From Prorocentrum cordatum (taxonomy: Eukaryota > Sar > Dinophyceae > Prorocentrales > Prorocentraceae): a DNA stretch of 64,000 nt. Shown one piece after another: positions 1,005 through 48,561 of the stretch (positions within the stretch are counted from its first letter, which is position 1; the number at the start of each line of letters is the position of its first letter). Location: assembly GCA_963575745.1 (NCBI GenBank), contig CAUYUJ010004780.1:236812-300811 (forward strand), in the 5' to 3' direction. Position numbers and translations under genes: made by a program. The notes under the pieces were generated by a model. It had not been told where the DNA came from. It saw only the letters and a list, made by a program, of their open reading frames with translations, and ran no database searches.

Positions 1005-1087
1005 TGATGAGATAATGTGTTGATTAGCAACAAGATCTCTTTTCATCTTGAGCCAAAATAGGTACACGGAGGAGGGTGTCAGAATCA
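1005..1087 (-). repeat. Element 1 3' LTR (83 bp)
   Basis: Identical over 83 bp to 8275-8357, and starts TG and ends CA. On the element sense strand it contains ACCTATTTTGGCTCAAG at 1047-1063, matching the 3' end of the dinoflagellate spliced leader. It is preceded by TCCGT, as in the leader. Confidence 0.97.
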
Positions 1088-1331: not shown

Positions 1332-4300
1332 TCACTTGATATCCTTCTGGGTCGAACTCGGTGCCCGATCCCAGATGTTGAGCGTCGCCATGTGTCTCCT
1401 CAAGAGAGATCCACCCACGCTCTTGGTCAGCACGTCCGCGACATTGTTCTTACCAGGAACCGCGGCGATCGAGAGGTCGCCCTTGCCCACGCGCTCCTGG
1501 ATCCACAGGTATCGGGATTGAACATGTCGCATCTTCCCGAGACCTCGCCGTTGGACGTGGCCCCGGGCCGCCGATGAGTCTGAGGCGAGCTCCACCTTCA
1601 GGTCCAGCCCCCAATCTGCGAAGAGGCTGTGTAGACCCAGGCCCACGCTCCCGCCCTTCACCAGGGCGTAGTACTCGCTCTCCCCACTGCTCAGAGAGAC
1701 CGTCGACTGAAGATTACTGCCGTGCTTGATGACGTGATGCCCCAGCATCGCCACGAAGCCTCCGGTACTTTTCCGAGTGACTGCGCAGCCCGCATGATCG
1801 GAGTCCACGTACACTCGGATCTTGTCGAACATCTTCTGCTCCGTGAAGACCGTCACCGTACTGGGATGCCGCTTAAGGTAGCGGCCAACCCTCTTGAGCA
1901 TGAGCCAACTCGCCTCCGTCGGCGTCTGCATGGACCTGGCGAGCGTCTTCGATGCCTCTGCCAAGTCCAGCCTGTCCTGAGACAGGTAGGCTACCCTCAT
2001 GGTGAGGGATCGGAAGCGCGAAGCTTCCGCCGTTCCCAGCGCCGCCGACTTCGCGTCCATCATCTGCTTGTCGGCGCTGCGCTTCTCCATCGGCGTGTCC
2101 ACGCCGTTGGCCTTGCTGAGACCCAGCTCGTCGATCACGATCTCTGCGTGCCGCTTGTCCGGCTCGATCATCGCATGCCGGCAGGGTCGGCCACCGCCAG
2201 GCGGAACTCCCGCACTGACCTCGATGACCCGATTCAGGAAGACCGCCTGCTTGTCGTCGCCCTCGTCGAAGCCGAGGTTCGCAGTCTTCTTGAACTCGTA
2301 CTTCTTGCCTAACGTGGCTTCGAAGCTGTCGATGTCCTGCTGCTGAGCCAGCACCGCGAAATCGTCGCCGTGCCCCAGCAGCCTCGTCTCGTCCACCTCC
2401 TTGTAGAAGACCGCTGGGCATGACACGCCCGCCTTGTAGCCGTGTTCCTCCAACAGCTCCGTGTAGTCGCCCTGCCAGATCTTGCTGGCGTCCTGCGTGC
2501 CGTACCAGGACTTGAGGAGTAAGCCACACTTGTCCTCACCGTACTCCTTGCGACTCTCCTCCTCCAGCTCCACGAAGATCCTCCGCTGCGCCTTCCCGTA
2601 GAAGTGCGCCCTGCTGATGTCGAAGAAGCCGATCTTGAAGTTGCCCGGCTTCCTGCCCTTCCTGCGAAGCGACTCCTGAATGTGGAGCGGTGCTTCCCGC
2701 GTCCACGTGACCATCAGCGAGACCAGCGACCGCATGGCCTCCAGCGGAGGCATTGCCGAGAAAACCTCGGACGCCTCCAGCTGCTCGTCAGGACGCTTCT
2801 TCGCCTTGATCTCCTTCACGACGAGCCTGCTCCTGTAGTTGGGCCTCTCCGCGTCACCCTTGTTCGCGTCGACCCACTTGAGTGGGATGGGCGGACGCCC
2901 AGTCTCAGCGAAAGCCTGAGACCTCGGGACGATCTCGATCAGCTCCTGCTTCTTGACCCACTCGCGCTCGACCGCGCGAGCCTGGGCCACAAGGCCCGCC
3001 TCCAGGTAGCCGCCATTGACGTCGTCCCAGTAGCTCGTCCAGTCCCCGGGCGGCACCGCCGCGTCCACAGGGACTGGGCCCGACTGCTGCACCTGGGCGG
3101 TGCTGAGCTCCCCCACGTCATTCAGCGTGTCCTTGAGCTCCTCCAGCACCGCCTCCACCAACTTCGGTGGATAGACCTTCGCAAACCGCGCGATGCCGCC
3201 CACGAGCGTGATGTGGCGATGCCACTCCGCGCGTCCGTCCACATTGCTGCAAGTGCCCTGCAGTCTCCGGGCTAAGCCTGGGTGGTTGGTGACCCACCCG
3301 GTCTCCTTGCGCACGAACTCCTCCTGGCCACTGCGTGGGTTCGTGAGCTTCATGCCCCACCGACACATGGGGCCTTTGACCGTGAAGACTCCTGGATGCG
3401 CGACCAGCTCCTTGACGATGTCCTCATTCCACGATCGCGCGCTCCAGGGATGCTCATGCAGGAAGTACCTGCCTGGCTTCCTGAGCTGACGCCAGTAGGC
3501 GTCGACTGCCACCTTCAGGTGGTGTCTGGCCTCCTCCATCTCAGCCGCCTCCTGCTCATCGGTCCTGAACTTGGCGCTCAGGCCCCTCAGCAAGCTGAAC
3601 TTCTCGCATGGAGGGGACCCTGTGAGCAGGATGGGATCCATCCGCTCCTGCTGCTCCTCGAGCTCCTTGACATCCTCGGGTCGCCGCAAGTCCCACGGCG
3701 CCCCGTCCTCCTTGAGTTCCTCCAGGTCCGCCGCGAAGCCCGGGCGCAGCTGAAACTCCGCCGCCCGAGCCGAGAACCGATGTGGCGAGTGCACCTCTGC
3801 CACGTCCACGGCGCCCAGCTGCAACGCCGATAAGGCGATGCTGTCCACCTCTTCGTCGGCGATGTCCACGCCGACGCTGGCCCAATGGCCGCTGACCTGC
3901 TCGCGAACGAGCGGAAGCAACTCCGCCTTCGCTCTCGTCAGCACTCCGAGCTCGACCAGCTCGATCGACGCCACGTCGAGAGCGAGCACCCGCATGTGTC
4001 TCCCCTCACTGGCGTTCCACACGACTGCCACTCCAGCTGGCAGCTGAGGTCCCTCCGCTGGCGCCGGCTGCGCCGCGAGATCCTCCATGTCCACCGGTAC
4101 CGGCACGTCTGCCGGCTGTGGATCACCGCGCTCGAGGGCCTCCGGCACGTCATCCGGGGCCACCTCCGCCAAGCGCTTCAGCCGCGACCTGGTCGCGGTC
4201 ATGTCGACATCCTCGGCGGCCTCTGCCGCTCTCACTGCTCCCGAACTGGAGCTCGCTCCTCCTGAAGGAGCCGCCACGCCGGAGCCTGATGCTCCCGGCT

Positions 4301-5816
4301 GGCTCTCTCGCATGCGCGCCGCTGCGGCTGGCGCTGCTGCCGATCGGCTCGCGGCCGGCGCCGACGCCGCCGCTGCCACCGGCTCGGTGATCCTCCGAGC
4401 CGTCTTCGGCGGAGGGGTCCCTGCCGCGGCCGCTGCCGCCGGGCGGACTCTGGCCTCTTGGCCCTGCCTCCGCTCTCGATACTGGCCGGTCCTCTCCCGG
4501 CCTGCCTCCTCAGCGTCCAGCGCTTCGAAGATTCTCTTGCTGCACACCGCGTTGTGCGCATGGCCAGCCAGCACCTTGCCGTGCTTGGCGATCGAGACGC
4601 ACCCTGGGCATCCCGGCGTTGCGCCCAGCCGCTCGACGTCCGCCTTGAGAACGTACATCCTCCTCGGCGCCTGCGGCTGCGGCGGCACCACCACAATCGG
4701 TGGCGGACCGGCCTCTCCCGGTCCGACGATGGCTCGCGGCGCACTGGCCGCACGCGGAGCCACGTCCCACGGCAGGCCCTTCAGGCTGTCCCAGCCCGCC
4801 GTGATCCACTTCTCGCTCTGCGGCAGGCTGCGAAAGCCGACCGCCTTCTTCACACCGTCGCTCGTGATGACCATCATCGAGCCGTCGCGCGGGTGGTGGC
4901 CGATGTAGCGAGCCTCCACCATCTGCTCCTCCAGCGCGTTCTTCCTCGCGCGCTCCCCGGCGAACCGCACCATCAGGCGCTCACCGAAGAGCGGGACCGG
5001 CTTCCTCCACTGCCGTCCCGTGAGCCGCTGAAGAGCGGTCTTGCCGTCCTGGCCGCGCCTGTATCGGTTGATCACCGCCGCGGCGTGCTCCGGCAGGTGC
5101 GCTAGCACTGGGTGCTTGTCCTCCACCTTGACACCCAGCTTGGACTCCAGGTCCATCTTGAGCGCTCGCACCTGCTTCTTGATCTCGCGCACCGTGACCT
5201 CGATCTCCCCATTGGCCTGATGATCGGCCGGTGCCGACTCCTGTGGAATGGCCTCGAGGCCAGGAACCTCCTCCACCGCACGCCTCTTGACCAGCAGGAT
5301 CGCTGGCTCGCCGTCGGACTTGTTGACGATCTTCCTGTAGCCCAGGATCCGTAAGAAGCGTGCGAAGAACTTGATGGCGTAGGCGTCGTCGCCCTTCTTC
5401 TCCACGAATGTCGCTGCCATCATCTTCGAGCGTCGATCCCTAAGGACCAGCATCGGCATGGTGTCCGCGTCGTCCTGGCCCATGAAGGCGTAGTCGGACG
5501 AGACCACCGGCACCGCCGTCTCGTCGTCCTCCGGTGCGCGGAGATGCGGCTGGCCTTGGCCCTTTGCCGCAATACACACGCGACACCAACTGCGGTAGGT
5601 CGCGTGTCCCATCGCCTCGTGCTCGACGATCTCCCTCTGAGAGGGCTCGTGAGGTGCCTTCAGCACCCTCGGGCGAGCCTCCTCCTCGCCCTCGTCGGCC
5701 TGCTGTCCATCAGGAGCAGCTGGCAAAACGTCGGCCGCGGCAGCTGCCGCTGGCTGAAAACCCGGCGGTCTCATGTCGGAAGGTCCCGACCCCGCCGCTG
5801 CCACCCCTGCAGCCAA
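1332..5816 (-). CDS. pol: Element 1 Pol: integrase, methyltransferase-like module, RT, RNase H
   Basis: Pol of a copia-type element, 1494 codons from a TTG at 5816; the first ATG in frame is at 5774. Integrase: zinc site H66, H71, C78, C81, then D108, D168 and E204 with exactly 35 residues between the last two. A Cys/His module (C403, C406, H421, C425) follows. Residues about 675-895 resemble a cytosine-5 DNA methyltransferase, with a motif I-like strand, GSPPCEKFS (C737) and FLHEHP (E788). RT spans about 977-1200 with D1066 and the GHGDD pair D1151/D1152. RNase H has D1338, E1379, D1413 and D1461. The frame overlaps the gag end in the -1 register, so a Gag-Pol fusion by frameshift is likely. 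All catalytic residues of integrase, RT and RNase H are present. Confidence 0.93.
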   Translation of the reverse strand: MAAGVAAAGSGPSDMRPPGFQPAAAAAADVLPAAPDGQQADEGEEEARPRVLKAPHEPSQREIVEHEAMGHATYRSWCRVCIAAKGQGQPHLRAPEDDETAVPVVSSDYAFMGQDDADTMPMLVLRDRRSKMMAATFVEKKGDDAYAIKFFARFLRILGYRKIVNKSDGEPAILLVKRRAVEEVPGLEAIPQESAPADHQANGEIEVTVREIKKQVRALKMDLESKLGVKVEDKHPVLAHLPEHAAAVINRYRRGQDGKTALQRLTGRQWRKPVPLFGERLMVRFAGERARKNALEEQMVEARYIGHHPRDGSMMVITSDGVKKAVGFRSLPQSEKWITAGWDSLKGLPWDVAPRAASAPRAIVGPGEAGPPPIVVVPPQPQAPRRMYVLKADVERLGATPGCPGCVSIAKHGKVLAGHAHNAVCSKRIFEALDAEEAGRERTGQYRERRQGQEARVRPAAAAAAGTPPPKTARRITEPVAAAASAPAASRSAAAPAAAARMRESQPGASGSGVAAPSGGASSSSGAVRAAEAAEDVDMTATRSRLKRLAEVAPDDVPEALERGDPQPADVPVPVDMEDLAAQPAPAEGPQLPAGVAVVWNASEGRHMRVLALDVASIELVELGVLTRAKAELLPLVREQVSGHWASVGVDIADEEVDSIALSALQLGAVDVAEVHSPHRFSARAAEFQLRPGFAADLEELKEDGAPWDLRRPEDVKELEEQQERMDPILLTGSPPCEKFSLLRGLSAKFRTDEQEAAEMEEARHHLKVAVDAYWRQLRKPGRYFLHEHPWSARSWNEDIVKELVAHPGVFTVKGPMCRWGMKLTNPRSGQEEFVRKETGWVTNHPGLARRLQGTCSNVDGRAEWHRHITLVGGIARFAKVYPPKLVEAVLEELKDTLNDVGELSTAQVQQSGPVPVDAAVPPGDWTSYWDDVNGGYLEAGLVAQARAVEREWVKKQELIEIVPRSQAFAETGRPPIPLKWVDANKGDAERPNYRSRLVVKEIKAKKRPDEQLEASEVFSAMPPLEAMRSLVSLMVTWTREAPLHIQESLRRKGRKPGNFKIGFFDISRAHFYGKAQRRIFVELEEESRKEYGEDKCGLLLKSWYGTQDASKIWQGDYTELLEEHGYKAGVSCPAVFYKEVDETRLLGHGDDFAVLAQQQDIDSFEATLGKKYEFKKTANLGFDEGDDKQAVFLNRVIEVSAGVPPGGGRPCRHAMIEPDKRHAEIVIDELGLSKANGVDTPMEKRSADKQMMDAKSAALGTAEASRFRSLTMRVAYLSQDRLDLAEASKTLARSMQTPTEASWLMLKRVGRYLKRHPSTVTVFTEQKMFDKIRVYVDSDHAGCAVTRKSTGGFVAMLGHHVIKHGSNLQSTVSLSSGESEYYALVKGGSVGLGLHSLFADWGLDLKVELASDSSAARGHVQRRGLGKMRHVQSRYLWIQERVGKGDLSIAAVPGKNNVADVLTKSVGGSLLRRHMATLNIWDRAPSSTQKDIK

Positions 5817-8254: not shown

Positions 8255-8274
8255 GTGGCCAGCTCACGCTACCA
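8255..8274 (-). promoter_or_regulatory. Element 1 primer binding site
   Basis: The minus strand reads TGGTAGCGTGAGC directly after the 5' LTR. TGG pairs with the CCA end of a tRNA, and TGGTAGCG equals the start of the yeast Ty1 site for initiator tRNA-Met. The tRNA identity is therefore inferred as initiator Met. Confidence 0.75.
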
Positions 8275-8357
8275 TGATGAGATAATGTGTTGATTAGCAA
8301 CAAGATCTCTTTTCATCTTGAGCCAAAATAGGTACACGGAGGAGGGTGTCAGAATCA
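8275..8357 (-). repeat. Element 1 5' LTR (83 bp)
   Basis: Exact copy of 1005-1087, directly followed on the minus strand by the primer binding site. The spliced-leader-like stretch lies at 8317-8340. Immediately after CTCAAG comes an ATG opening a 15-codon frame that ends in a TAG within the primer binding site. Confidence 0.97.
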
Positions 8358-12070: not shown

Positions 12071-12125
12071 TGTTGATGGTTTTTACTTGGACCAAGGGGC
12101 TACAGATTAGCATGTACAGTCAACA
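12071..12125 (-). repeat. Element 2 3' LTR (55 bp)
   Basis: Identical to 18377-18431. The sense strand contains GTAGCCCCTTGGTCCAAG (within 12086-12106), which aligns to the spliced leader with transitions and one gap. Confidence 0.97.
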
Positions 12126-12342: not shown

Positions 12343-15300
12343 CTACCCCGTGCTGCTGAGAAGCGCGCCTAGGTGCGAGCCTAGACTCGCATCCGAGCGA
12401 AACGCTCGGATAGGCACTCTGCTTGGAACCAGCCGCGCGGCCCACGCCGCTGCAGCCAGCCCCTCACTGCTGGCCATGTGCTGGCCGCCGTCCCTCGACA
12501 GACGGACGATGAGGTCCGCCTTCAAGCCGCTCACTGGCAGCTTCCGCCACCTGAGCTCCTCCTTGAGCTCTGCCACGGTGGCCTCAGCCAGCATCTTCCC
12601 GAAGTACTCCGAACCGAGGTCTCGCCCTTCGGCGACCCGCTCAGGCGCAGCTATCGCCGCTGCCCGAGAAACGACATGCCCCTCAGGCGCGTCCTTCGAC
12701 GCCGCCTCGGGCCTCGCCGTGCCGTCGGCCTGCGGGGCAGCCCTCGCCGCTCCCGCTGGTGGGGCAGCACTCGCCGCCCTAGATGAGAAGAGCTGCACCG
12801 CCCCTCTCGTGCACACAACTGCGCCCTTGACCGCGAGCACCAGCACGATGATGAACACGATCATGGCGAGAACGATCGAGCCGATGTTCGACTCGACCTC
12901 GTCGTCAGCGGCCGTGGAGCACTGCTTGTCTCCGTGCTCGGCCGCCTCCGTGAAAGTGACGCCCACGCCCGCGGCGAGCCCCTTGGTCAGAAGCCGCAGG
13001 TTGGACATCTCCAGCAACTTGAGCACCCGCTTGCCGTCCAGATGCTTGGTCCCCAAGTCGCTCCTGTTGCTCTCCGTGTCGACTCGCCCGAGCTGTAGCT
13101 CGCCGAGCCTGACTCGTTCCTGCACCCACAGGTCTCGTATCTGTAGATGCCGTACTTTGCCACTGCCGATCCGCGTCGCGATCGCCCTGCCTGCATTCGA
13201 GTCGCTGTGAACCTTCGACGCGACCTCGATGCCACACTGCTGGTAGAACTGCCGCATCATGATCGCACTCGCCGCGCCTCGGCCGATGGCGTAGAACTCG
13301 GCCTCTCCGCTGCTGAGCGCGACGACGGGCTGCGATGCCACCTGGGTCTCCAGGAGGTGGCTGCCAAAGAAGCCGTACACGGAGCTGGTCGATTTCCTCG
13401 TGATCTCATCCTCTGCCCAGTCCGAGTCCGTCTCGTAGAGAACCTCCTTGGGCATCTCCTGCTTCTCGTAGAACCACCCGAGCTCGCGCCGACCGTGGAG
13501 ATACCGCACGCACCGCCTCAGCCTAAGCATGCTGATGACTGTGGGCTTCCCCATGTCCGTGAGGATCACCTTCACCGCGAACTGGATGTCCGGCCTGTCT
13601 ACCGCCGCGTAGTTGACGAGCCCCGCGACCTGCTGGTAGAGCTTCGCCTCGTCGTGTGGAAGTGGATCCAGCGCCTCCCGGACGCTCTTGCCCGTGGCCT
13701 TGCTCCCAGGCGTGTCCGCCGGCTTGCACTCCGTGAGGCCCAGCAGCTCCACGCACCTCGTCACGTGCTTCGTGTCGCCGATCCAGACGAACCCCTTGCC
13801 CGTCCACCTGATCTTGCGCTTGAGGTATGGGAGCTCGCGAACGCCATCCGGCCCGACACGACCGATGCACTTGACGTCCATGCTCGCCATCAGCTGCTGG
13901 CCCAGGACATCCAGGGACTCCTCCTCGCCCTCGGTCAAGATGTCGTCACCGTGGATCGCCGAGGTCATGTCCAAGAGAGGCTCGTGGTACACGCCCGCCG
14001 CCACCGCGATGCGCGTCCAGTTGTTCTTCTTGAACACCCCGGCCACGTACTCCTGCCAGGCCTGGGCCGCCTTGCGCGTGCCGTACATGGCCTTCCGGAG
14101 CTGCCGCACGTACCCGTCTCTCCTAAGTCCTGGAGGCGGGATGACGACGATCCACTCGTCGAGGTCGGCGTGGAAGAACGCCACGTGGACGTCATGCACC
14201 GAGAGATGCCTCCGACCCTTCTTCGTCGCCGCCAAGGAGACGATCGCCCTGACGATGGCGATCGGCGGCGCGCCCGCGTTGCAGTCCTCTCGGCCGTACG
14301 TGTTGATCTCCATGGCGACGCCTCGGGACCGGACGAAGGGGTTGCCGTCCTTGGTGCGCAGGTCCTCGACCCACTTGAAACGCACCACCTTGCCCCGGCT
14401 CTCGGCCACGCGGACCTCCTCGAAGACGCCGTGTCGCCGCATCTCCTCGATCTCGGCCTCGCGCCCGCGCCTGACCAGGTCCCTGGGGAGCTCCTTCCCG
14501 CTCCTCGCGTCGCACACGTGCTTCTCCGTGTCTGGCAGGACCGTGATCGCCGCCGGCTCGACGGAGCTGACCTCGAACATCCCGATCTCCAGCGGCTCGC
14601 AGCTCTCGATCTCCGCGACCGTCTCGAGCTCCTCGTGGGACTGCTGGTCCAGGCCTTCGTACGTGCAGGGATTGATCTCCACGAAGGCCCCGACTGCGAG
14701 CGACCCGACTGTGATCGCCGCTGTCTGGCGCGGCCTCTTCGCCGACGCCTCGCCCTGGTCGTCGCGAGGCGCCATGCTGGCATCCCCGGACGATCCTGGC
14801 CTGCCGTCTCCAGCCCCAGCCGCTGGCCCCGGCGCGGCTCCCGCCGCCGCCGGCGTCGGCGCAGCCCCCGCCGCTGCCGACGAGGGCGCGGCCTCCGCCG
14901 CTGCCCTGGCCATCTCTTCCTTGCGCAGCTCGTTCTCGATCCTCTTCCGGCACTCCTCGCTGTGCGATCCCATGCCTGTGACGCACCTCGGGCACATGGG
15001 GGTCCAGCCGTACTTGTCGATCAACGCCCTCGTGATGTACGTCGACCTCAGCCCTGCGCCTCCTGGCCCCGCGGGCGGCGCCGGCCCGACCATCGCTGGC
15101 GGCACCAGCGCCTCCGGGCCCGCAGCCGGTAAGGCCACCGGCGGTGGTGGAGGTGGCGGCATCAGCCGCTGCTGGTTCGGCTCCACCTGGGGCGCTCCCG
15201 TCGGCACGATGCCGATCTGTGGAGCCCGGTGCATGTCCCACGGCACCCCAGCGAACTTGTCCAGCTCCTCCAGCACGAACCGCTCGCCCTCCGGTCGCCG

Positions 15301-18126
15301 TCTCACCGTGCGCACCCTCGTCGTGCGCGTTGGACCCGCCACCAGGTGCTCGTCCGAAACCTCTGTCTTGCCCAGCCACACCGCCGCGTGCCACCGAGGC
15401 TGCAGCTTGGAGGTCGGCGTGGGGTCCCTCGCCCAAACGCACTCCGCGAAGTTGACGAGCTCGCCCCGATACGGCCTCCCCTTGAGCACCTCGTAGGTCG
15501 TCTTGCCGTTGCCGTGCACCGTGAAGCGGTTGAGCTGCCAGCCAGCGTGCCGAATGAGCCAAGGTAGAAGCCCATGCTCGGCTGGGAGCTCCCGCTTGTA
15601 GTTGTCGCCCACCGAGAACAGCAGCGCCCTGATCTGCTTGCCGAGCTCCTCGTTGGCGCGCTCCACTCCACCGACTCCTTGATGGTTAGCCCGCTGAGCT
15701 GACTCGATCATCGTGGGCGCCTTCCGCTGAGCCTTGATCTCCCTCGCCAGGGCCGTGATCGACGCCTCCTGGTCGTGCTTCAGCACGATGCGATCCAGCC
15801 CCCAGTTCTCAATGGTGGCGACCGCTGTCTTGACCATGTAGGCGTCGGTACCCTTCGGCCCCATGATGCCATGAATAGCTTGGGAGTTCATGTGCACCAT
15901 GTTGAGGATGCTCAGCTGGCCCAGGAAGTAGTAGTCGATCTGGACCTCGTCGCCCGTGCGCTCGTGCCCGGCCTTGTAGTGCGGGTCGTCCGTGAACTTG
16001 GATCTGACGCACACCCAGCACCAGGACCTCGCCGGAATGTGCACCAGCTCGTGCGTCCTCTGCTCGGCCAGGCTTGGCTTCACCGGATCCTTCTTGACTC
16101 GAACTGGCACGGACTCCTCGAGCACTGCCTGCGCTGCCGGCTCGCTCGCCTCGGCCTGAGCGCGGGTCGCGGCAGCCCCTCCGCCGCCGCCGCCCTGGAG
16201 CGCGGCCCTCGCCGCTGCCCTGGACGCGGCTGATGCGCCGCCGGGCTCGCCTCCTGGCTCCTCGCCCCGCACCGGCATGACGAGCGAGTTCTTGACGCCT
16301 TCACCGTACCTGTCCATCTTGAGGTAGAACAAGTCGTTGCGCCTGACCAGCGGCACGGCGTCTGGGTCCGAGAACTCGATCGGCTTCGGGATCATGTAGC
16401 TCCCGCTCGGCGTGAACACCCACGACGTGCCCTTGTCGACCGCCTGCGACACGCCCAGCACCGGCCTCTTGACGTCGGCGACCTTGTAGTCCACCCCGAT
16501 CTTGTGCCCGTCCTTCGCGTACGTGACGAAGCGCTCGCCGTGGCACGGGATGTCGTCGCCGCTCGCTCCGACCAGCCTGATGCGCTCGCTCAGGTCTCTG
16601 AGTGTCTCGTGGGCCCCGTGACTCGGCGGGCACACCGATCGCGCAGCACCCGAATCCACCATGACCCAGTGCTCATTGATACCGATGATCTCCTTGCTCT
16701 CGAACGTCTCGTGCTCGTCTGCTGCCCCTGGCCGGCTCAGCTGCTCGATCGGGCTGGCCCCGACCAAGAATGGCTGCCTCGGCTGCTCGTGCTCGTTTGA
16801 CGCCTCTGGCTGGCTCAGCTGCTCGGTTGGGCTGGCACCGACCAAGAATGGCTGCCTCTGCTGCGCGTGCTCGTTTGACGGCCCGCTCGAACGAAGGTGG
16901 ATCGCTGTCGTCGCTGGTGCTGAGGGCGTCGCTGCTGCTCCACTCGATAACGACTCTTGCCCTTCTTCCAGCTCGATCGCGAGGCACCACAGTGGCTCTG
17001 CCCCGCTTTCGGTCGCGATCGCCATCACCGGTGCCGCGCTCCCCGCGGCGCTCGCCGCTGGTGGAGCTCCCGTCGGCCTCGACTCCTGCTCGACCGCGTT
17101 GGTGCCCTTCTTCTTCTTCTGCTCTGCGAGGAACTTCCTGCACTCGCTCTTGACGTGACCGGTCTTGTGGCAGTGGAAGCACCGTTTCTCGGCCCTGTCC
17201 TTGGCCGCCTGGCTCCTCTGGTCCGTGGAGTTGTCGCCGCCCTTGCCCTTCCTGCCTTTGCCTTCCTTGCCCTTCTTTCCTTTGCCCTTGTCGCGCTCGC
17301 GCCTCGCCTTCTCCACCGCGCTCGTGTCCATCGGAACTGGTGGCGGCACTGCTGAGATGGCGCTCCTCGTCGAGATCACCATGTGCACCTCGTTGCGCAT
17401 GAGCTCCCACGTGACTAGCCTCGACGCGTTGTGGACCAGGTGCGCTCGAAGAGCTTCGTCCTGAATCCCCCGCTGAAGGATCGCCATCTTGATCCTGTCC
17501 CCAATCCTCTCGTGGCTCTGGCTCTCGTACTTCGTGACCTTGAAGTCGAAGTCCGCCAGCATCCCCACGATGTTGTCCTCTGGGAACTGGAGCGCGATCA
17601 GCTCTTGCAGCAGTCCTGCATGGCGACCGGGTCTGTCGGGCTCGCACATGTCTTGTAGTGTCCTCCAAGCCCGATACCCTTCTCCGACGCCGACTGGCTT
17701 GATGAGCTGCAGTGCGGCTCCTTCCAGCAGCAGGACGAGGATGAAGTACAGCTGGCGACTGCGCTGACTCGCTCCCTCCTCCAGGAGCCTCGCGTTCCTC
17801 ACCTCTTCCAGCGGGAACGTCATGGCTGCTGTCAGCTCGTTGGCCATCTGCTCGTCGAGGGCCCCGAGGTACGCGAGCATCATGAAGCTCCACCCTGGCC
17901 ACTCGTCCTCGCTGCCTCCGAACGCCTTCGGCTTCGCCAGAAGCCGAGTGTCCACCAGATCCTGTGGCGCGGCCCTCGCCGCTGCCACGGGCCTGCTCGC
18001 GGCGGCGCCTGCGCTCGCTGCTGCTGACTCCGCCGCCAGGGCGCGCTCCTCGGCAGCCTGCACCCGTTGTTCGGCAGCCTGCAACGCTCCCTCGAGCGCC
18101 TGGAAGCGTCGCTCGATCTCTTCCAT
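12343..18126 (-). CDS. gag-pol: Element 2 Gag-Pol polyprotein with C-terminal membrane segment and SAP motif
   Basis: One 1927-residue frame from an ATG at 18126. In order: coiled coil (1-40); capsid-like Gag (about 60-260); Lys/Gly-rich stretch; zinc knuckle C316, C319, H324, C329; a duplicated 30-residue linker around NEHxQxRQPFLVGASP (about 417-470); protease D491-SGA; integrase zinc site H692, H696, C703, C706 with D731, D785 and E822; Cys/His module C1045, C1048, H1055, C1059; RT (about 1245-1410) with D1312 and HGDD D1394/D1395; RNase H D1567, E1608, D1642, D1690. After RNase H comes a hydrophobic segment (about 1748-1772), an Ala-rich linker, and a SAP-like helix-turn-helix (about 1850-1880, with VAELKEELRWRKLPVSGLKA). 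There is no stop or shift between Gag and Pol, so their ratio must be set some other way. The C-terminal extension is not part of standard copia Pol. Confidence 0.95.
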   Translation of the reverse strand: MEEIERRFQALEGALQAAEQRVQAAEERALAAESAAASAGAAASRPVAAARAAPQDLVDTRLLAKPKAFGGSEDEWPGWSFMMLAYLGALDEQMANELTAAMTFPLEEVRNARLLEEGASQRSRQLYFILVLLLEGAALQLIKPVGVGEGYRAWRTLQDMCEPDRPGRHAGLLQELIALQFPEDNIVGMLADFDFKVTKYESQSHERIGDRIKMAILQRGIQDEALRAHLVHNASRLVTWELMRNEVHMVISTRSAISAVPPPVPMDTSAVEKARRERDKGKGKKGKEGKGRKGKGGDNSTDQRSQAAKDRAEKRCFHCHKTGHVKSECRKFLAEQKKKKGTNAVEQESRPTGAPPAASAAGSAAPVMAIATESGAEPLWCLAIELEEGQESLSSGAAATPSAPATTAIHLRSSGPSNEHAQQRQPFLVGASPTEQLSQPEASNEHEQPRQPFLVGASPIEQLSRPGAADEHETFESKEIIGINEHWVMVDSGAARSVCPPSHGAHETLRDLSERIRLVGASGDDIPCHGERFVTYAKDGHKIGVDYKVADVKRPVLGVSQAVDKGTSWVFTPSGSYMIPKPIEFSDPDAVPLVRRNDLFYLKMDRYGEGVKNSLVMPVRGEEPGGEPGGASAASRAAARAALQGGGGGGAAATRAQAEASEPAAQAVLEESVPVRVKKDPVKPSLAEQRTHELVHIPARSWCWVCVRSKFTDDPHYKAGHERTGDEVQIDYYFLGQLSILNMVHMNSQAIHGIMGPKGTDAYMVKTAVATIENWGLDRIVLKHDQEASITALAREIKAQRKAPTMIESAQRANHQGVGGVERANEELGKQIRALLFSVGDNYKRELPAEHGLLPWLIRHAGWQLNRFTVHGNGKTTYEVLKGRPYRGELVNFAECVWARDPTPTSKLQPRWHAAVWLGKTEVSDEHLVAGPTRTTRVRTVRRRPEGERFVLEELDKFAGVPWDMHRAPQIGIVPTGAPQVEPNQQRLMPPPPPPPVALPAAGPEALVPPAMVGPAPPAGPGGAGLRSTYITRALIDKYGWTPMCPRCVTGMGSHSEECRKRIENELRKEEMARAAAEAAPSSAAAGAAPTPAAAGAAPGPAAGAGDGRPGSSGDASMAPRDDQGEASAKRPRQTAAITVGSLAVGAFVEINPCTYEGLDQQSHEELETVAEIESCEPLEIGMFEVSSVEPAAITVLPDTEKHVCDARSGKELPRDLVRRGREAEIEEMRRHGVFEEVRVAESRGKVVRFKWVEDLRTKDGNPFVRSRGVAMEINTYGREDCNAGAPPIAIVRAIVSLAATKKGRRHLSVHDVHVAFFHADLDEWIVVIPPPGLRRDGYVRQLRKAMYGTRKAAQAWQEYVAGVFKKNNWTRIAVAAGVYHEPLLDMTSAIHGDDILTEGEEESLDVLGQQLMASMDVKCIGRVGPDGVRELPYLKRKIRWTGKGFVWIGDTKHVTRCVELLGLTECKPADTPGSKATGKSVREALDPLPHDEAKLYQQVAGLVNYAAVDRPDIQFAVKVILTDMGKPTVISMLRLRRCVRYLHGRRELGWFYEKQEMPKEVLYETDSDWAEDEITRKSTSSVYGFFGSHLLETQVASQPVVALSSGEAEFYAIGRGAASAIMMRQFYQQCGIEVASKVHSDSNAGRAIATRIGSGKVRHLQIRDLWVQERVRLGELQLGRVDTESNRSDLGTKHLDGKRVLKLLEMSNLRLLTKGLAAGVGVTFTEAAEHGDKQCSTAADDEVESNIGSIVLAMIVFIIVLVLAVKGAVVCTRGAVQLFSSRAASAAPPAGAARAAPQADGTARPEAASKDAPEGHVVSRAAAIAAPERVAEGRDLGSEYFGKMLAEATVAELKEELRWRKLPVSGLKADLIVRLSRDGGQHMASSEGLAAAAWAARLVPSRVPIRAFRSDASLGSHLGALLSSTG

Positions 18127-18376: not shown

Positions 18377-18431
18377 TGTTGATGGTTTTTACTTGGACCA
18401 AGGGGCTACAGATTAGCATGTACAGTCAACA
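18377..18431 (-). repeat. Element 2 5' LTR (55 bp)
   Basis: Exact copy of 12071-12125, abutting the primer binding site. At 55 bp it is shorter than usual LTRs by several fold. The spliced-leader-like stretch is at 18392-18412. Confidence 0.97.
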
Positions 18432-22304: not shown

Positions 22305-22456
22305 TGAGAGTCTGCCCAGGCGGGCAGGGATCGCTGATAAGGATGCTTTATACCCTTGATCCAAAAAGGGCGCCCTGTGAACGCGTGCGCTGCTGTAGAA
22401 ATCAAGATAAGAACAGATACTACACACACGCCTGCTAAATACCCGTTTCTCTGACA
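22305..22456 (-). repeat. Element 3 3' LTR (152 bp)
   Basis: TG...CA boundaries. It differs from the 5' copy by an AG duplication near its start and three transitions. The sense strand has GCCCTTTTTGGATCAAG at 22355-22371, resembling the spliced-leader 3' end. Confidence 0.95.
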
Positions 22457-22809: not shown

Positions 22810-25800
22810 CTACCCCTCCGCATCGCCTGGCCGGGCCTTGCGGGCTCGGCGCGCCTCACCAGCCGCTGCCTTGGGAGCGAGCATCTCCTCCGTCTGTGCC
22901 AAACACCACCAGCGGCCCTCGGTCAGCCGCTCGAGCAAGAAACTCCTCTCAGCCTCGGCCTTCGTCAGAGCGTCCGCGATCATTAACTTCGTGTCGATCC
23001 ATCTGACTCGTATCCTCCAGTCATCACCCTCTCGCTCCTGCTTCAGCACGTCATGGCCGAGCAGCTGACGGATCTGGGCCATCAGAATCCGTACCCTCTT
23101 GTCAGCGGGCTGACCACCATCCTTCTCCAAGGAGGTGACGAGGCCGTTCGCGTCCGTCAGCAGCAGCAGGTGCTTGCCGTCGAAGAACGGGTCGAACTGG
23201 TAGGACGAGTAGCCGGGGTCGGAGATCTCGGCGATCACATGCTTGAGGAACTCCGCGCTCTCGGCCGTCGTCAGGAAACCGTTGCATTCAGCTGCGAGCG
23301 ACCCGCGAACCGCTCGCTTGATCGTCGCACTAGCCCATTCCAGCGGATGGATGATCGCGGCGGCGTCCATCTCGAGGTCGGGCGACGCCATGCCGATGAT
23401 GTAGCCGCACTGCGACTTGACCTTCTCGCCCAGCGTCAGGTCATCGATGTTGCCGTGGCTGCTGTCGCCGCAGCCGAACACGATAGCGCTGTCCCAGTCC
23501 AGGCGGGACGAGAACACCAGCTTGAAGTCGACGTCGTCCTTGGCCATCTTGATGGCACGATTCACTGCAACGACGTCGCGGATCTTGGGGCCACTCATAG
23601 ACTGAGCCCCAAGCGAAGCGTGGAAGGCCAGGTCAGGGCGCGTCTGCCGCGCTACCCAGCCAAGCGACCCAACACCGCTACGGAGGGCAGAGATCTCCTC
23701 CGGGGTGAGCGGCGCATTGGGCTTGCGCCGGCGGTGTGGCTCGAGGGCGATGTACTCCAGCGCCTCGACCGTGGCGGCCTGGCCGATCTTGATGTCGAAG
23801 GTCTGGCTGTCCTGCTCCACGACCTTGCCGCAGTACCTGAACGTGTCGGACTGGAAGGAAAAGTGAATCTTGTCCCTGATGATCTCCATCACGCGCTCGA
23901 ACTGCTCGCCCGCGCCCGCGACGAAGAGGTCGTCGACGTGCGTGCACAGCAAGCCGATGAGCTTGCCCAAGCTGTCCCTGAGCATGAACAGGCAGGGCTC
24001 GTAGATGGACTCGCGCCAACCCTGCTCCACGAGGATGGCGCGCAGATGCAGCCACCACTGCCTGCCCGCGTCCTTGGTGCCGTAGATGGCGCCGCGAGCG
24101 CGCATGTAGGACCCCTCCGGAACTCCAGGTGGTGGAGGACGAGGAGCTCGAAGAAGCAGAATGCGCTCAATGCCCTTGGACTGCAGGTAGGCCGTCGCAG
24201 CATCAGCCGCCCTTACCTGCCACCGATGGGAGGCAGCGTAGCTGGCGACCAGGTGGAAAGCCAAAAGGCTGGCAGTAGGAGCGTCGCCTCGGATATCATC
24301 TCCTCGTTCCTGGCAGCCCTGCACGACGAGCCGACTCTTGGCAGCGAGCGGGATGTCGTCATAGGTCTGCTTGGGGTTGCGCTTCTTGGCGTTCTTGTCC
24401 GTGTGAACCCAGCGCGTCCCAACCGGGGAGGCACCCCTGTTGAGGAGCTCCTTGGCCTGGTTGGAGCTCAGCACCTCGACGGCCTGGAACTCGGTCCAGC
24501 TGCGCCACTCCTTGGCCATGGCCTGGTCGAACTCCTTCCTCTGCTCTGGGGCGAGATCTTGAAGTCTGATCTCGGAGCGGACCGCGCCCTTGGTGAGGTA
24601 GGCGAACTCGACGGTGTCATTCGTGCCCACGTCCTCCTCGGTGTGGACGAAGATGGTCTCGACCGCGGTGATGCCACCAGGCAGAGGCCGGCGAAGGCGA
24701 GCATCGCGAAGAGCAAGACCTCTGACGTCGATGTCATCGATCACGATGCCCGTCTTGATGTCTCTGGTGATGCGGCGAAGCACCTTGGACCAGCGAGGGC
24801 CACGCATGTCCGTGGCGATGAACTTCTTGATGCCGTAGTCGGTGCGACGCCACTCGTAGGCGACAGCCAGGTCCGGCTTGTAGTCGCTGGTGAAGAACAC
24901 TTCGTGAAGGGCATCCTCCATGACGCGGGACCCCTCCTCCACGTAGCCCTGGAAGGTGCGAGGCTTCTTGGTAGAATCCCGATCCAGACGCTCCGGATCG
25001 CGCATGGCTCTGTCCAGCTGGGCAAGCGGCGGGCCTCTGCGCTTCTCCCCGCGCTCCAGGCCCACGCCCATCTCGTCGTCCGGGGGCACCGGCTTGTCGA
25101 TAGCCTCGTCGTCAGGGGGCACCGGCTTGTCGATAGCCTCCTGGGGTACTCGAGGATCGACCCGGTGACCTTTAACTTCGGAATAAATGCCGGGCTCGCC
25201 CGGGCCGCACGAGCGCGGCGGCCCCTCTGCCTCTGGGAGCCCCGGGCGTGGTGGCTCAGGAACCACAGGAGGAGGCTGATGCTGAGCTGGTGGTGGTAGT
25301 AGTGTGTCGTCAGTCTCCTGAATAATTGGAGGTGCTTGTTGTGGTACTTCGTGTGATGCCTGTTGTGGTACTTCGTGCGCCGGCTGTGGAGGGTCGACCC
25401 GCTGCTGTGGTAGATGGTCCTCGGTGTTGAACTCGTCGAGGTCGAAATTTGCATCAGGTCCTGGCCCGGCAGATCCGAGCGCGCCCCCAACCACCCCTCG
25501 GTGACCAGCCGCGCGCTGTTGCGGCCTGGGCATCGGGGCGGGCGAGGCTGCCGCCGTGTCGGCCCGGATGTCGATGTAGTGCCTGGCCCCCTTCAGCGAC
25601 CGGAGGGACAGCAGGTCCGGGTTCACGTAGGTGTGCATGGCGAGCAGCTCGTCCTCGGAGGCGAACCTGAGCGACTCAGGGGCTGCGAGCACGGTGGTGT
25701 GTCCATAGCGCAGCCACGCTGCATGGGCCAGCGTGCCGACGGGCTCGTCGGTGTCGCGAGAGAGATGGCGAGGGTCGCGCACCTCATGCCCGATAACCCG

Positions 25801-28071
25801 GGCCGGCCCAAACCAGCGGCGCGTGACCTCGGGGCTCTCGCCGACTCGGGTTTGCGACCGGCGGAAGTACACGATGGCCCCAATGTTGAAAGGGCCTCGG
25901 CTAGGCCGCGCCTTGCGCAGGATGGCGCGCTTGACGCGGTCGTCGGAGTCGAGGCGGACGTGCGCGATGCGGGCCGCCTCGCGCAGGGCCATGGTGCGGG
26001 CCATGGCAGACTGTGGGTCGAGCGACGCCTCGATGACCTCCAGCCGCTGCGCCTCGTCGTCTTGCAGGAGGCTTCCTGGGGCGCGGGGCCCGTGCGACCC
26101 CAAGACCAATTGCGAAGGGGAGAACCCCCCGCGCCGGCCCAGCTCGTTCTTGACCTGGGTCACGATGGAGGCGGTCTCCTCGACGTCATCCAGCCCTGTG
26201 ACCTGGGAGTCGGCGACAGTGCGTCGCCAGATCTCCTTCCAAATGCCCCCGTGGCGCTCGCACTTGCCGATGAGGTGCGGCGTCTCCAACGGGGCCAGGT
26301 CGACCTGCACGCCGTGCGCCTTCGCGTTAGAGGCGAAATCCTTCATCCACTCCTTGCCCAGGTCCACCGTGAGCTTCTCTGGGTAGCCAGCCCACGGGGT
26401 CCAGCTGGTAGTGAACGCCTTGGTAGTGGCACGCGCCGTCGGTGATCCACGAGCCGGGCCCATGCAGCACGCGACTTGGAAGTTCGTGCCCTCGCAGATA
26501 CAGTTCATAAAGAAATAAGGGGTCCCGGCAGCGTCGTAGGCGTGGCAGGTGTCCAGCTGGATGGCGTAGTTGAACACGTACTGACCTGGCAACCGCGAAG
26601 GTCGTGGGGCGCGCCGACGAATGGCGTCGCCACAAGCGTCGCAGGAAAAGAACTCCACGTACTTCAGCACCTCCGGCTTGACTCCTCGGCGCCTCAGCAG
26701 CCTGGTCAGCGTCACGTTCGAGCAGTGGTGGAAGTTGACGTGGAGCTGGCGGATGGCCTTCCTGACCTCCGGCGGGGCCTCCAGCCATCGCCTGCGCCGC
26801 TCGGCCTCCTGAGTGTTGGTGATGGGGCCGAGCTGAGCGGCCTCTCGGGCTCGCTCGCCGTCGGGATCGACGGCTGGCGGAGGTGGTGGCTCCCCCACAG
26901 CTTCTTGGTCAGCTGGAGGAGGAGCAGGCTCAGGCGCGTTCGGGTCCAGCGGTGGCGCTGGCGGCGCCATGGCTGCCCGGTACGGGTGCCCCCGCAGCCT
27001 GGTCCGTCGTCGTAGTCGAACTGGCCCACGAAGGTCTGGACCGTCCTCTGCTGGGAACTGCCAGTCAGTGTCCGTGGCGTTGTCGACGATGGCCTGCTGT
27101 ACGATGCTGCGGGCGACGATGTGGTTGAGCTCCTCCGGCCACTCGGCCGCTTGCAGGGTGCGCGGCCCGAACTTGTTGCGGCCCTTGAGCTGATCGTGCT
27201 GGGTGCAGCTGCACTTCTTGTCGGAAAGGGCCTCGACCAGCGTGTCCATGGTGGTAATGATCATCATGGGCTTGCGATGAGCCAAGCCTGACTCAGCATC
27301 GCGGTGCCCTGCCTGGCAGCCGTCGAAGGTGACCTTCTTCAGCATGCCCTTGTCCAGGAGAGAACGAATCCTTGACATCTCCGGCTGGTCGAAGGCCTCG
27401 GAGCCCTGGGGATGCTCCAGCGCCACGTGGAAGCCCCTCCGCACTCGGCTGTCCACTGAGGAGTCCACCTGCCTGAGAATGGGGCGGTTCGCCTCGCGCT
27501 TGGCCAAGATCTTCCTCTCGGACTCCGGGCACCGGGCCATGTTGAATCTGCTCCAGTTGCCCCGCGGCGAGCAGGGGTGCGAGACCACGAGGCAGTACGG
27601 CTCCTCGTTGGTGATCTCCGCGTCGCACCTCTGCCTGCCCAGCCTGGTGGTAGCGTCCCAGCCCGTGTGCTTGTCCAGCGGGACGCCGACCGAGAGGCCC
27701 ATCGCGGCCATGATCACTGTCAAACCCATCTGGCCGGCGTAGGTCTGCTTGACCCACGTCCGGGCACCGGCAGGCAGCCGGGCCTTCGGCGGATGCTTCT
27801 CCACGACGGCCTGCACCACCTCGTCCTGCACGGCGATGGCCTGCAGGGAATTCTCGAGCTTCTTGGACTTCTTGTTGGTGAGGTTGCGCTTGCCGCCCCA
27901 CTCGATGGCCTCGGCGGCGAAGACGTCCGGTCCGTAGTCGTGGTCGACGACCGTCTGGAGGCACTCGTCGTCCGTAGTCTCGCCGATCTCGATGTCCAGG
28001 AAGCTGGGGAGAGGCTCAGCCGAGCTCTCCTCGATGAAGGTGATGCCGACGTGGAATTGCTCGGGGAAGAA
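22810..28071 (-). CDS. pol: Element 3 Pol: methyltransferase-like module, integrase, RT, RNase H
   Basis: No ATG start is used: the frame overlaps the gag end and is entered at about 28061-28072 (TTTCTTCCCCGA), +1 relative to gag. The reading on both sides, EDHHLEF then FPEQFHVGITFIEESS, joins smoothly. Numbered from the GTG at 27831: residues about 30-225 form a methyltransferase-like module with HPCSPRGNWSRF (C87) and VALEHP (E139). Integrase has H364, H368, C397, C400, D427, D490 and E525. A proline-rich linker contains a doubled IDKPVPPDDE. RT spans about 1136-1330 with D1210 and THVDD (D1300/D1301). RNase H follows, with GCGDSS, AECNG, TDANGL and DALTK. The module sits before integrase, unlike element 1. 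No internal stops. Confidence 0.92.
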   Translation of the reverse strand, partial: FFPEQFHVGITFIEESSAEPLPSFLDIEIGETTDDECLQTVVDHDYGPDVFAAEAIEWGGKRNLTNKKSKKLENSLQAIAVQDEVVQAVVEKHPPKARLPAGARTWVKQTYAGQMGLTVIMAAMGLSVGVPLDKHTGWDATTRLGRQRCDAEITNEEPYCLVVSHPCSPRGNWSRFNMARCPESERKILAKREANRPILRQVDSSVDSRVRRGFHVALEHPQGSEAFDQPEMSRIRSLLDKGMLKKVTFDGCQAGHRDAESGLAHRKPMMIITTMDTLVEALSDKKCSCTQHDQLKGRNKFGPRTLQAAEWPEELNHIVARSIVQQAIVDNATDTDWQFPAEDGPDLRGPVRLRRRTRLRGHPYRAAMAPPAPPLDPNAPEPAPPPADQEAVGEPPPPPAVDPDGERAREAAQLGPITNTQEAERRRRWLEAPPEVRKAIRQLHVNFHHCSNVTLTRLLRRRGVKPEVLKYVEFFSCDACGDAIRRRAPRPSRLPGQYVFNYAIQLDTCHAYDAAGTPYFFMNCICEGTNFQVACCMGPARGSPTARATTKAFTTSWTPWAGYPEKLTVDLGKEWMKDFASNAKAHGVQVDLAPLETPHLIGKCERHGGIWKEIWRRTVADSQVTGLDDVEETASIVTQVKNELGRRGGFSPSQLVLGSHGPRAPGSLLQDDEAQRLEVIEASLDPQSAMARTMALREAARIAHVRLDSDDRVKRAILRKARPSRGPFNIGAIVYFRRSQTRVGESPEVTRRWFGPARVIGHEVRDPRHLSRDTDEPVGTLAHAAWLRYGHTTVLAAPESLRFASEDELLAMHTYVNPDLLSLRSLKGARHYIDIRADTAAASPAPMPRPQQRAAGHRGVVGGALGSAGPGPDANFDLDEFNTEDHLPQQRVDPPQPAHEVPQQASHEVPQQAPPIIQETDDTLLPPPAQHQPPPVVPEPPRPGLPEAEGPPRSCGPGEPGIYSEVKGHRVDPRVPQEAIDKPVPPDDEAIDKPVPPDDEMGVGLERGEKRRGPPLAQLDRAMRDPERLDRDSTKKPRTFQGYVEEGSRVMEDALHEVFFTSDYKPDLAVAYEWRRTDYGIKKFIATDMRGPRWSKVLRRITRDIKTGIVIDDIDVRGLALRDARLRRPLPGGITAVETIFVHTEEDVGTNDTVEFAYLTKGAVRSEIRLQDLAPEQRKEFDQAMAKEWRSWTEFQAVEVLSSNQAKELLNRGASPVGTRWVHTDKNAKKRNPKQTYDDIPLAAKSRLVVQGCQERGDDIRGDAPTASLLAFHLVASYAASHRWQVRAADAATAYLQSKGIERILLLRAPRPPPPGVPEGSYMRARGAIYGTKDAGRQWWLHLRAILVEQGWRESIYEPCLFMLRDSLGKLIGLLCTHVDDLFVAGAGEQFERVMEIIRDKIHFSFQSDTFRYCGKVVEQDSQTFDIKIGQAATVEALEYIALEPHRRRKPNAPLTPEEISALRSGVGSLGWVARQTRPDLAFHASLGAQSMSGPKIRDVVAVNRAIKMAKDDVDFKLVFSSRLDWDSAIVFGCGDSSHGNIDDLTLGEKVKSQCGYIIGMASPDLEMDAAAIIHPLEWASATIKRAVRGSLAAECNGFLTTAESAEFLKHVIAEISDPGYSSYQFDPFFDGKHLLLLTDANGLVTSLEKDGGQPADKRVRILMAQIRQLLGHDVLKQEREGDDWRIRVRWIDTKLMIADALTKAEAERSFLLERLTEGRWWCLAQTEEMLAPKAAAGEARRARKARPGDAEG

Positions 28072-31035: not shown

Positions 31036-31185
31036 TGAGTCTGCCCAGGCGGGCAGGGATCGCTGATAAGGATGCTTTATACCCTTGATCCAAAAAGGGC
31101 GCCCTGTGAACGCGCGCGCTGCTGTAGAAATCAAGATAAGAACAGATACTACACACGCGCCTGCTAAATACCCGCTTCTCTGACA
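31036..31185 (-). repeat. Element 3 5' LTR (150 bp)
   Basis: 98 percent identical to 22305-22456. The spliced-leader-like stretch lies at 31084-31100 and is followed on the sense strand by GGTATAAAGC. Confidence 0.95.
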
Positions 31186-31780: not shown

Positions 31781-31892
31781 ACAGCAACCAGGCGGACGAT
31801 GGATGCCAGACAATTTTATGAGAACTCCGACCGCCCCAAGGCCTAGGGCGAGACACGGGATCACAGGCCAGATGACAGCATAGGAGATCCCC
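31781..31892 (-). repeat. Split direct repeat B2 (terminal)
   Basis: Second copy of B with the internal deletion. It forms the outer end of the element next to family A. A 46-bp unique stretch (31893-31938) separates it from A2. Confidence 0.88.
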
Positions 31893-31938
31893 AGACAGTG
31901 CAGCACAAAGGATGCAAGCGACAGGGGGGGAGGGAGGG

Positions 31939-32042
31939 AGAGCTTGAGCCGCGTGCCACGGATAGCACACGGGACTGTGAATTCTCACATGCGGCATCCT
32001 TGCGGCCAGACCCTCCTGTGCTTACAGATCTAAGATCATACA
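31939..32042 (-). repeat. Split direct repeat A2
   Basis: Second copy of A, directly adjoining B1. The spliced-leader-like stretch is at 31943-31962. Confidence 0.9.
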
Positions 32043-32180
32043 GCACAACCAGGCGGACGATGGATGCCAGACAATTCTATGAGAACTCCGACCGCAGGCG
32101 ACATCAGCCATCCATCCCGGGCCCCAAGGCCTAGGGCGAGACACGGGATCACAGGCCAGATGACAGCATAGGAGATCCCC
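32041..32180 (-). repeat. Split direct repeat B1
   Basis: About 140 bp, from CAACCAGGCGGACGATGGATG to CATAGGAGATCCCC. It contains a 26-bp internal stretch around AGGCGACATCAGCCATCC that B2 lacks. Confidence 0.88.
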
Positions 32181-32367
32181 CGAATCCCGCAGGACTGACT
32201 GGGCCACCAAGGCCGGACCAAAAAGTCAAACTTAAACGAAACACAGTGGTCGCCCAAAGCCCCCAAGACGCACCAACAGGCAACAGTGTCAACACCCCCC
32301 AAGAAGATCGGTACCAGCGGCAAGCCGACCATCAGGGAAGCACACGACGCTGCTACCTGCCAGGCAG

Positions 32368-33210
32368 TTAGACATCGAGTCCAGAGGCGAGGGCCCACAA
32401 ACGACGAAGAGACATTCGCATTGACCCATTGATCATTAACTTCGCAACGGTCTGAGCCAGTCTCGGCGGATACGAGGCTGCTAAGGCGGTCCAGTTCTTG
32501 CCGCCAGGAGCCTTCCCAGTCAAGACAATGTGTGGCTTCTGGGTCCTACTGCACAGGCCGTGGCGACAATTGCAGTTCTTCTGGAGTGAGTGGAGAAAGG
32601 GAGAAAGCCAGGCAGAGATACGAGTGGGCTTCATCCATCGGGTGCCATATTGACACATGTGAAAGACAACTGACTGATGCAAAAGTTTCTGGCACAGCTG
32701 CAGCATGCGGGGCGCAGACCAAAGCTGGGACAGGGCTGGGTTCTCGATATATACTGGAAAACCGCACTTGATGCACAAATCAACTATTCGGCAACTGGAC
32801 GTAAAAGTGGCATTCCCTGCCGCTAGCCGTCCTTGTTCGGCCTGTGAGAGTAGGGCGGCAGGGGCGCCCATCGGGTGGTCGCGCGAGCGAAGTGGATGAC
32901 GGAGGGCCCTGCTCCAAGACGTGCTAGGGGTTCCCAAGAACACCCCCGAGACACATCCACTAGAAATCCACCCCCGAACAAGTTTGATGAAAACAGGGTG
33001 CAGGTGATCCTCACCAGCCGAGTTTTAAATCCAGGTCAAGGGCAGAAGCGCCCGGGCCCCGAAGGGCCTCCGACAAGGACCCAGACCCGGCAAACAACTC
33101 ACGAAACAAACGATACTGAGACGGATTATGGGACCCTTTCCCCCTACTTATCTCCTCCTTAAATCGGCACTGCAGGTGGGCTCGAATCTTAGAGGCGATG
33201 AGGGAGTAAG
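32368..33210 (-). pseudogene. Methyltransferase-like domain of the recombinase element, frameshifted
   Basis: It starts in the RT register with YRLFRELFAGSGSLSEALRG, a clear SAM-binding motif I, and LDLDLKLGW, then hits a TGA at 33011-33013. Shifting by one base at about 33014 restores EDHLHPVFIKLVRGWISSG (33012 down), GVFLGTPSTSWSRAL (motif IV-like), VYIENPALSQLW (motif VI-like Glu) and a C-terminal part with SYPPRLAQTVAKLM. The catalytic position of motif IV is Ser (AGC) instead of the expected Cys. Frame break plus Ser make it inactive as it stands. The fold assignment rests on motif order and is not search-tested. Confidence 0.68.
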
Positions 33211-33216
33211 AAGGTC

Positions 33217-37460: not shown

Positions 37461-37489
37461 GGTGCTAGGCCATCCGATGGCCTAGCACC
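37461..37489. repeat. Perfect inverted repeat containing a TAG stop
   Basis: 13-bp arms GGTGCTAGGCCAT and ATGGCCTAGCACC around CCG. The in-frame TAG of the upstream frame lies in one arm. Confidence 0.9.
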
Positions 37490-37490
37490 A

Positions 37491-38429: not shown

Positions 38430-38464
38430 GCGCGCGCGGGGCTCTGGGACCGACCACCCCCTCA

Positions 38465-48535: not shown

Positions 48536-48561
48536 AAACCCAAACGAAAACGCCTCCGAAC

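Follow-up and report, generated by a model that had tools for sequence, protein, structure and literature searches.

Slamovits and Keeling reportedly described relics of the dinoflagellate spliced leader (DinoSL, here also SL) in dinoflagellate retrogenes in 2008. Relic leaders at the 5' ends of retrogenes are well known from the available text of PMC12014239, PMC7245778 and PMC3229502, and the leader is printed in the accessible part of PMC7245778 as DCCGTAGCCATTTTGGCTCAAG. Dinoflagellate Ty1/copia elements, as described in the excerpts available from PMC6050394 and PMC3942190, have a copia-type reverse transcriptase, long terminal repeats (LTRs), 5-bp target duplications and a primer site. 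An LTR element with an acceptor site for the leader SL1 is Cer1, a gypsy-type element of C. elegans, itself an SL-bearing host (excerpts of PMC3315495). The elements E1, E2 and E3 reported here resemble the dinoflagellate Ty1/copia elements in the features named, with a putative primer site, and were found in the window, the whole 64-kb stretch of Prorocentrum cordatum DNA that was analysed. The LTR of E1 contains a segment derived from the SL.

Structure of the copia-type elements

E1 is a Ty1/copia-type retrotransposon with identical LTRs and the following features.

8275..8357, minus strand: 5' LTR of E1, 83 bp, TG..CA, 100% identical to 1005-1087, CACGA target duplication on both sides
1005..1087, minus strand: 3' LTR of E1, 83 bp, identical to the 5' LTR
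8317..8340, minus strand: SL-like segment in the 5' LTR of E1, TCCGTGTACCTATTTTGGCTCAAG, from the DinoSL comparison and LTR shuffles
1047..1070, minus strand: the same 24 bases in the 3' LTR of E1, from the repeat comparison
8262..8274, minus strand: primer-binding-site-like TGGTAGCGTGAGC, adjoining the end of the 5' LTR of E1
1332..5816, minus strand: pol ORF of E1, 1494 aa, copia-type reverse transcriptase (RVT_2, E 9.5e-12)

Elements E2 and E3 lie on the same strand.

18377..18431, minus strand: 5' LTR of E2, 55 bp, 100% identical to 12071-12125, target duplication TTTTC
12071..12125, minus strand: 3' LTR of E2, 55 bp, with the SL-like segment at 12086-12105 from the repeat comparison
18392..18411, minus strand: weaker SL-like segment in the 5' LTR of E2, CTGTAGCCCCTTGGTCCAAG (LTR shuffles, p 0.0075-0.11)
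12343..18126, minus strand: gag-pol ORF of E2, 1927 aa, with RVT_2 and SAP domains (Pfam)
31036..31185, minus strand: 5' LTR of E3, 150 bp, with SL-like CCTTTTTGGATCAAG at 31084-31098; 98% identical to the 3' LTR over 149 bp
22305..22456, minus strand: 3' LTR of E3, with the SL-like segment at 22355-22369 from the repeat comparison; target duplication GCATT
22810..27831, minus strand: pol ORF of E3, 1673 aa (RVT_2, E 9.8e-17)

All three elements have TG..CA terminal direct repeats with 5-bp target duplications (CACGA, flanking both LTRs, in E1; TTTTC in E2; GCATT in E3) and encode a copia-type reverse transcriptase scoring above the PF07727 (RVT_2) cut-off. The repeats of E3 differ at their ends, the 3' LTR having CTCTCA and the 5' LTR CTCA. 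Directly after the 5' LTR stands TGGTAGCG or TGGTAAGCG in each of the three, with TGGTAGCG as the putative primer site of E1, and the TGGTA at this position is presumably a primer site for initiator tRNA; the window holds no tRNA gene for comparison. Pfam detected no integrase domain in the pol of E1-E3, even at E 5, and several Prorocentrum cordatum relatives of the E1 pol, among the matches listed, bear the name 'Integrase catalytic domain-containing'. In one alignment, the E2 and E3 pol ORFs shared 31% and 19% identity with that of E1. The E1 LTR showed no unusual folding (z -0.85).

A 546-aa region of the E1 pol is 100% identical, over its full length, to an NCBI Prorocentrum cordatum protein, which identifies the window as dinoflagellate DNA. 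Proteins of this species fell into at least 20 clusters for the E1 pol (91-100% identity over 40-100% of the query, in the best 120 of 251 matches), at least seven for E2 (93-100% over 22-71%) and at least seven for E3 (86-97% over 19-68%). Since several clusters match each element, each family is multi-copy. More distant pol relatives, among the matches listed in the E1 and E3 protein searches, were metagenome, Symbiodinium and Amphidinium proteins. None of the 38 listed relative proteins had a match of more than 80% identity reaching into the LTR.

Further domains were observed in the coding regions. The C-terminus of the E2 gag-pol carries a SAP domain (residues 1850-1876, E 4.1e-7), which is also annotated in six of seven close Prorocentrum cordatum relatives of E2. 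The E1 pol has a domain (3096-3779, minus strand) that precedes the reverse transcriptase, bears PPC and HEHP motifs and has a confidently predicted fold (pLDDT 92.5). The best 12 Foldseek matches of this domain in the PDB were all C5 cytosine methyltransferases, although the matches were weak (best E 2.8e-3, none at or below 0.001; C5 methyltransferase TM at most 0.37). The Symbiodinium copia elements, as described in the available text of PMC5890265, are without such a domain. Large tandem and dispersed satellite arrays, with units including 16, 90 and about 267 bases, surround the elements at 18700-22400 and 38500-50400 of the window.

Spliced-leader sequence in the terminal repeats

A preliminary description of this DNA placed SL sequence at 8317..8340 inside the E1 LTR, with 13 consecutive bases of the SL 3' end and a 5' CCGT phrase matching, and the observation was confirmed. 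The segment TCCGTGTACCTATTTTGGCTCAAG is read there on the minus strand and again at 1047-1070, so that both members of an identical LTR pair with intact ends contain it. Within the segment, ATTTTGGCTCAAG is exactly the last 13 bases of DinoSL. Local alignment of the segment with DinoSL gave 17 identities in 19 positions, and 19 of 21 are obtained if, by eye, the 5' CC is read across a 2-base GT insertion. The exact 13 bases begin directly after the CC at SL positions 8-9, and the 5' part of the E1 copy is imperfect. The last 12 bases of the SL, TTTTGGCTCAAG, were found four times in 64 kb with at most one mismatch (0.24 expected), a count reached in none of 100 shuffles, and all four matches sit on the sense strand of the E1 and E3 repeats. 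When 15 bases were used and up to three mismatches allowed, five matches were present in the window against 1.65 expected, the fifth lying outside the elements. The real score of the E1 LTR was equalled by 0 of 5000 shuffled LTRs and, in a separate set of 4000 shuffles under each of four scoring schemes, again by none. The antisense control of E1 gave p values of 0.249-0.72 with LTR shuffles, and p was at least 0.249 in the antisense controls of all four elements. The SL-derived segment in the E1 LTR is certainly real.

The wider claim, that the other terminal-repeat elements show the same and likewise hold a leader copy within the LTR, stood in part. The matches in E2 and E3 are weaker and, as in E1, confined to the sense strand. 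With shuffled LTRs, the four scoring schemes gave p values of 0.022, 0.024, 0.11 and 0.0075 for E2 and of 0.0185, 0.011, 0.0097 and 0.011 for E3; when the leader was shuffled instead, the values were 0.051, 0.040, 0.18 and 0.0155 for E2 and 0.0075, 0.0025, 0.0020 and 0.0015 for E3. Both elements have mismatches to the SL within its last 13 bases, despite LTR pair identities of 100% in E2 and 98% in E3. An SL-derived segment in the LTRs of E2 and E3 is likely, not certain.

The claim failed for the fourth element, E4, which had been grouped with the others as a further terminal-repeat example.

31785..38568, minus strand: E4, split-direct-repeat (DIRS-like) element, with A1 at 38465-38568, A2 at 31939-32042, B1 at 32046-32183 and B2 at 31785-31895

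E4 was rejected as an LTR element, its repeats being arranged A-B-A-B and not as simple terminal direct repeats, and strand transfer of the kind that LTR elements use would have no place in E4. The full plan is A-coding-B-A-B (A1 and A2 94% identical over 118 columns, B1 and B2 79% over 138), which is also that of the Symbiodinium DIRS elements in the available text of PMC5890265; E4 differs from DIRS in that no tyrosine recombinase was shown in it. Its RVT_1 match of 27.4 bits is under the cut-off of 29.6. The resemblance to the SL is weak and consists solely of the 8 bases GGCTCAAG near the end of the A repeat (p 0.23, 0.11, 0.035 and 0.096 in the four schemes with LTR-type shuffles). An ORF of E4 (32368-32943, minus strand) may hold a piece of the methyltransferase-like module of the E1 pol (22% identity over 112 columns, E 0.018 in a single comparison).

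Acceptor context, proposed mechanism and rival explanations

The SL-like segment is preceded by 17 bases of LTR in E1, 20 in E2 and about 87 in E3, and ends at LTR offset 41 in E1 and 40 in E2. Directly past its CAAG end the LTR continues with ATGAAAAGAG in E1 and TAAAAACC in E2. Since 17-20 bases are too short for a usual promoter, read-through transcription with a trans-spliced 5' end is the natural reading for E1 and E2; the roughly 87 bases of E3 do not force it. No AG stands in the E1 LTR before the one closing the SL copy (AG is absent from 12% of random 39-mers), and in E3 several AGs stand earlier than the segment. A CTRAY motif lies upstream of the segment end in E1 (CTGAC, 32 bases) and E2 (CTAAT, 21 bases), the background being 6.5% for this post hoc comparison, and none was found ahead of the E3 segment. 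In the 35-base stretch leading up to the AG, the pyrimidine content is 71% in E1, 60% in E2 and 54% in E3, compared with a random 90th percentile of 63%. The E2 segment retains an internal GTAG, the AG of which is a second possible acceptor because retrogene relics lose their first seven SL bases to a new leader (available text of PMC12014239).

The best explanation, to which we assign a probability of about 0.4 from the sequence features, is that E1, and less surely E2 and E3, is a short-LTR copia element in which a copy of the host SL starts R and trans-splicing would restore matching RNA ends. E1 and E2 would be nearly or entirely without a promoter of their own and would depend on read-through for transcription. 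Splicing of the host leader to the AG closing the SL copy would then produce an RNA 5' end, SL plus U5, that matches the LTR and carries a perfect leader. This RNA would keep an SL copy in its 3' LTR as well, the landing place at which minus-strand strong-stop DNA would pair and, after transfer, be extended. If reverse transcription stopped inside the SL, only the 3' part of the leader would be re-copied, which would fit the exact last 13 bases of E1; full re-copying would leave every new LTR with a perfect SL, and the imperfect 5' part of E1 counts against it. About 70% of the full-length cDNAs of SL type from Polarella start at SL position 2 or 8, and the authors suspect that the 5' selection bound methylated cytosines at those starts (available part of PMC7245778); the text available from PMC12014239, a later paper, describes 5' truncation during library preparation. 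If reverse transcriptase also stops in the cell near SL positions 8-9, we infer that re-copying of part of the leader would produce what is seen in E1. For E2 and E3, with mismatches inside the last 13 bases in LTR pairs of complete or near identity, the idea that the leader is renewed from the true SL was rejected; these elements may have left the SL-renewal mode, may use the segment differently or may match by chance. It is doubtful whether a whole class of promoter-poor LTRs exists in which host SL RNA would supply the 5' end of R in each cycle and the LTR copy would serve strand transfer, an arrangement on which separate copia lineages would have converged. In such a class the LTR would depend on the host leader as an essential component that in part renews itself.

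Among the rival explanations, an SL-derived segment in E1 only, with no general pattern and with chance resemblance in E2 and E3, would be compatible with the single-element values given above, which reach 0.11 for E2 (0.18 with shuffled leaders) and about 0.019 for E3. Against it stand the joint tests. Fisher combination of E2 and E3 over the LTR shuffles gave p values of 0.0035, 0.0024, 0.0086 and 0.0009 in the four schemes, and the summed score of the two was equalled by 36 shuffled leaders out of 20000 tried and by 9 out of 20000 21-mers drawn at random from the window; for the sum of E1, E2 and E3 the counts were 0 of 20000 in both cases. The best ungapped motif common to the three sense LTRs, obtained without use of the SL, was TTGGCTCAAG, TTGGTCCAAG and TTGGATCAAG at width 10 (p 0.008, from 500 shuffles at this width and uncorrected for the five widths tried). 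This motif coincided with the SL 3' end at four of the five widths (10, 12, 14 and 16, with p 0.008, 0.014, 0.098 and 0.012); the p value at width 14 and the different motif on top at width 8 (p 0.15) favor a segment restricted to E1. Chance was rejected for all three LTRs jointly by the LTR shuffles, the de novo motif and the pseudo-leader sums, and restriction to E1 is considered improbable.

It is also conceivable, but unlikely, that the segment is a fossil: an SL-tagged element RNA would once have been reverse-transcribed, and the leader, fixed in a master LTR, would have been copied passively with no role in strand transfer, much as in the leader relics of retrogenes. SL relics are common in dinoflagellate genes according to the available text of PMC7245778 and PMC12014239, and the imperfect 5' part of E1 and the mismatches of E2 and E3 look like decay. 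However, three distant pol lineages share the SL 3' end, which would require repeated capture or constraint, and the near-equal LTR offset of the segment in E1 and E2 also argues against passive descent. Quite improbable is a function outside R, whether the segment, through its SL-type TTTT box, served as a promoter element or was simply a conventional 3' splice acceptor. The idea that this box could drive transcription is passed on in the available part of PMC12014239, TTTT is found inside the segments of E1 and E3, and the E1 context is acceptor-like, but TTTT is absent from the E2 segment and likeness to GGCTCAAG is needed for neither role.

Should the trans-splicing explanation be true, a leader copy in the LTR would be a simple answer to how RNA ends stay matched in SL-splicing hosts. 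It would explain the expression of elements with about 20 bases of U3 and would link copia elements directly with the process by which SL-tagged RNAs are reverse-transcribed into dinoflagellate retrogenes. With every SL-bearing LTR, a trans-splicing acceptor would move about the genome.

Related sequences and comparison with known systems

Searches of a viral contig collection, from which the genome of the window may be excluded, with E2 as query and with three alignment profiles returned no relatives. The pattern TTTTGGCTCAAG-N(5-35)-TGGTAGCG was found there in seven stretches with four distinct contexts, which were rejected as relatives and read as probable chance matches in ordinary sequence. 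A copia profile search of genome contigs yielded two loci, distant copia pieces in bacterial MAGs, and neither contained TTTTGGCTCAAG, TTTTGGnTCAAG or GGCTCAAG. One of these loci (L002, NHEN01000147.1; the other is L003), from a Verrucomicrobiaceae MAG, shows direct repeats about 6.5 kb apart encoding a copia-type reverse transcriptase and is probably eukaryotic contamination. As a separate observation, GTAGCCATTTTGGCTCAAG occurred in a single record of the viral contig collection, IMGVR_UViG_3300045993_001077 (L001), with complete 21-base SL copies on the minus strand at 2746-2766 and 2893-2913, 147 bases apart. The contig has 22% G+C, and after one SL copy comes a 254-aa ORF whose G+C is visibly higher and which had no Pfam match above the cut-off; this has the look of host cDNA, tagged with the SL, that a protist (giant?) virus has captured.

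No description of an SL inside an LTR was found in the literature searched, a scope outside which most subscription papers lie, and this silence is weak evidence for novelty. The passages at hand do not address how LTR elements in SL-splicing hosts keep matching RNA ends, and neither 'LTR' nor 'retrotransposon' occurs as a word start in the main text of the Prorocentrum cordatum genome paper (PMC10666404). E1 and E2 differ from the dinoflagellate Ty1/copia elements in the excerpts of PMC6050394 and PMC3942190, where very short LTRs (83 and 55 bp) together with an SL-like segment are not described. By analogy, Cer1, the nearest functional precedent, argues against the proposed mechanism: SL1 is found only on its spliced 2.4-kb mRNA, the 8-kb genomic RNA is not trans-spliced, and the available excerpts of PMC3315495 make no mention of an SL copy in the LTR. 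The E1 segment resembles the DinoSL relics (DinoRL), SL-derived genomic DNA that arose through reverse transcription of trans-spliced RNA, and the 15-base relic CCATTTTGGCTCAAG is matched at 14 of 15 positions by E1, at 13 of 15 by E3 and more weakly by E2. In the available text of PMC12014239 and PMC7245778 no role in replication is proposed for these relics, which sit at the 5' ends of genes, whereas E1, a mobile element, has its segment within each of its two LTRs.
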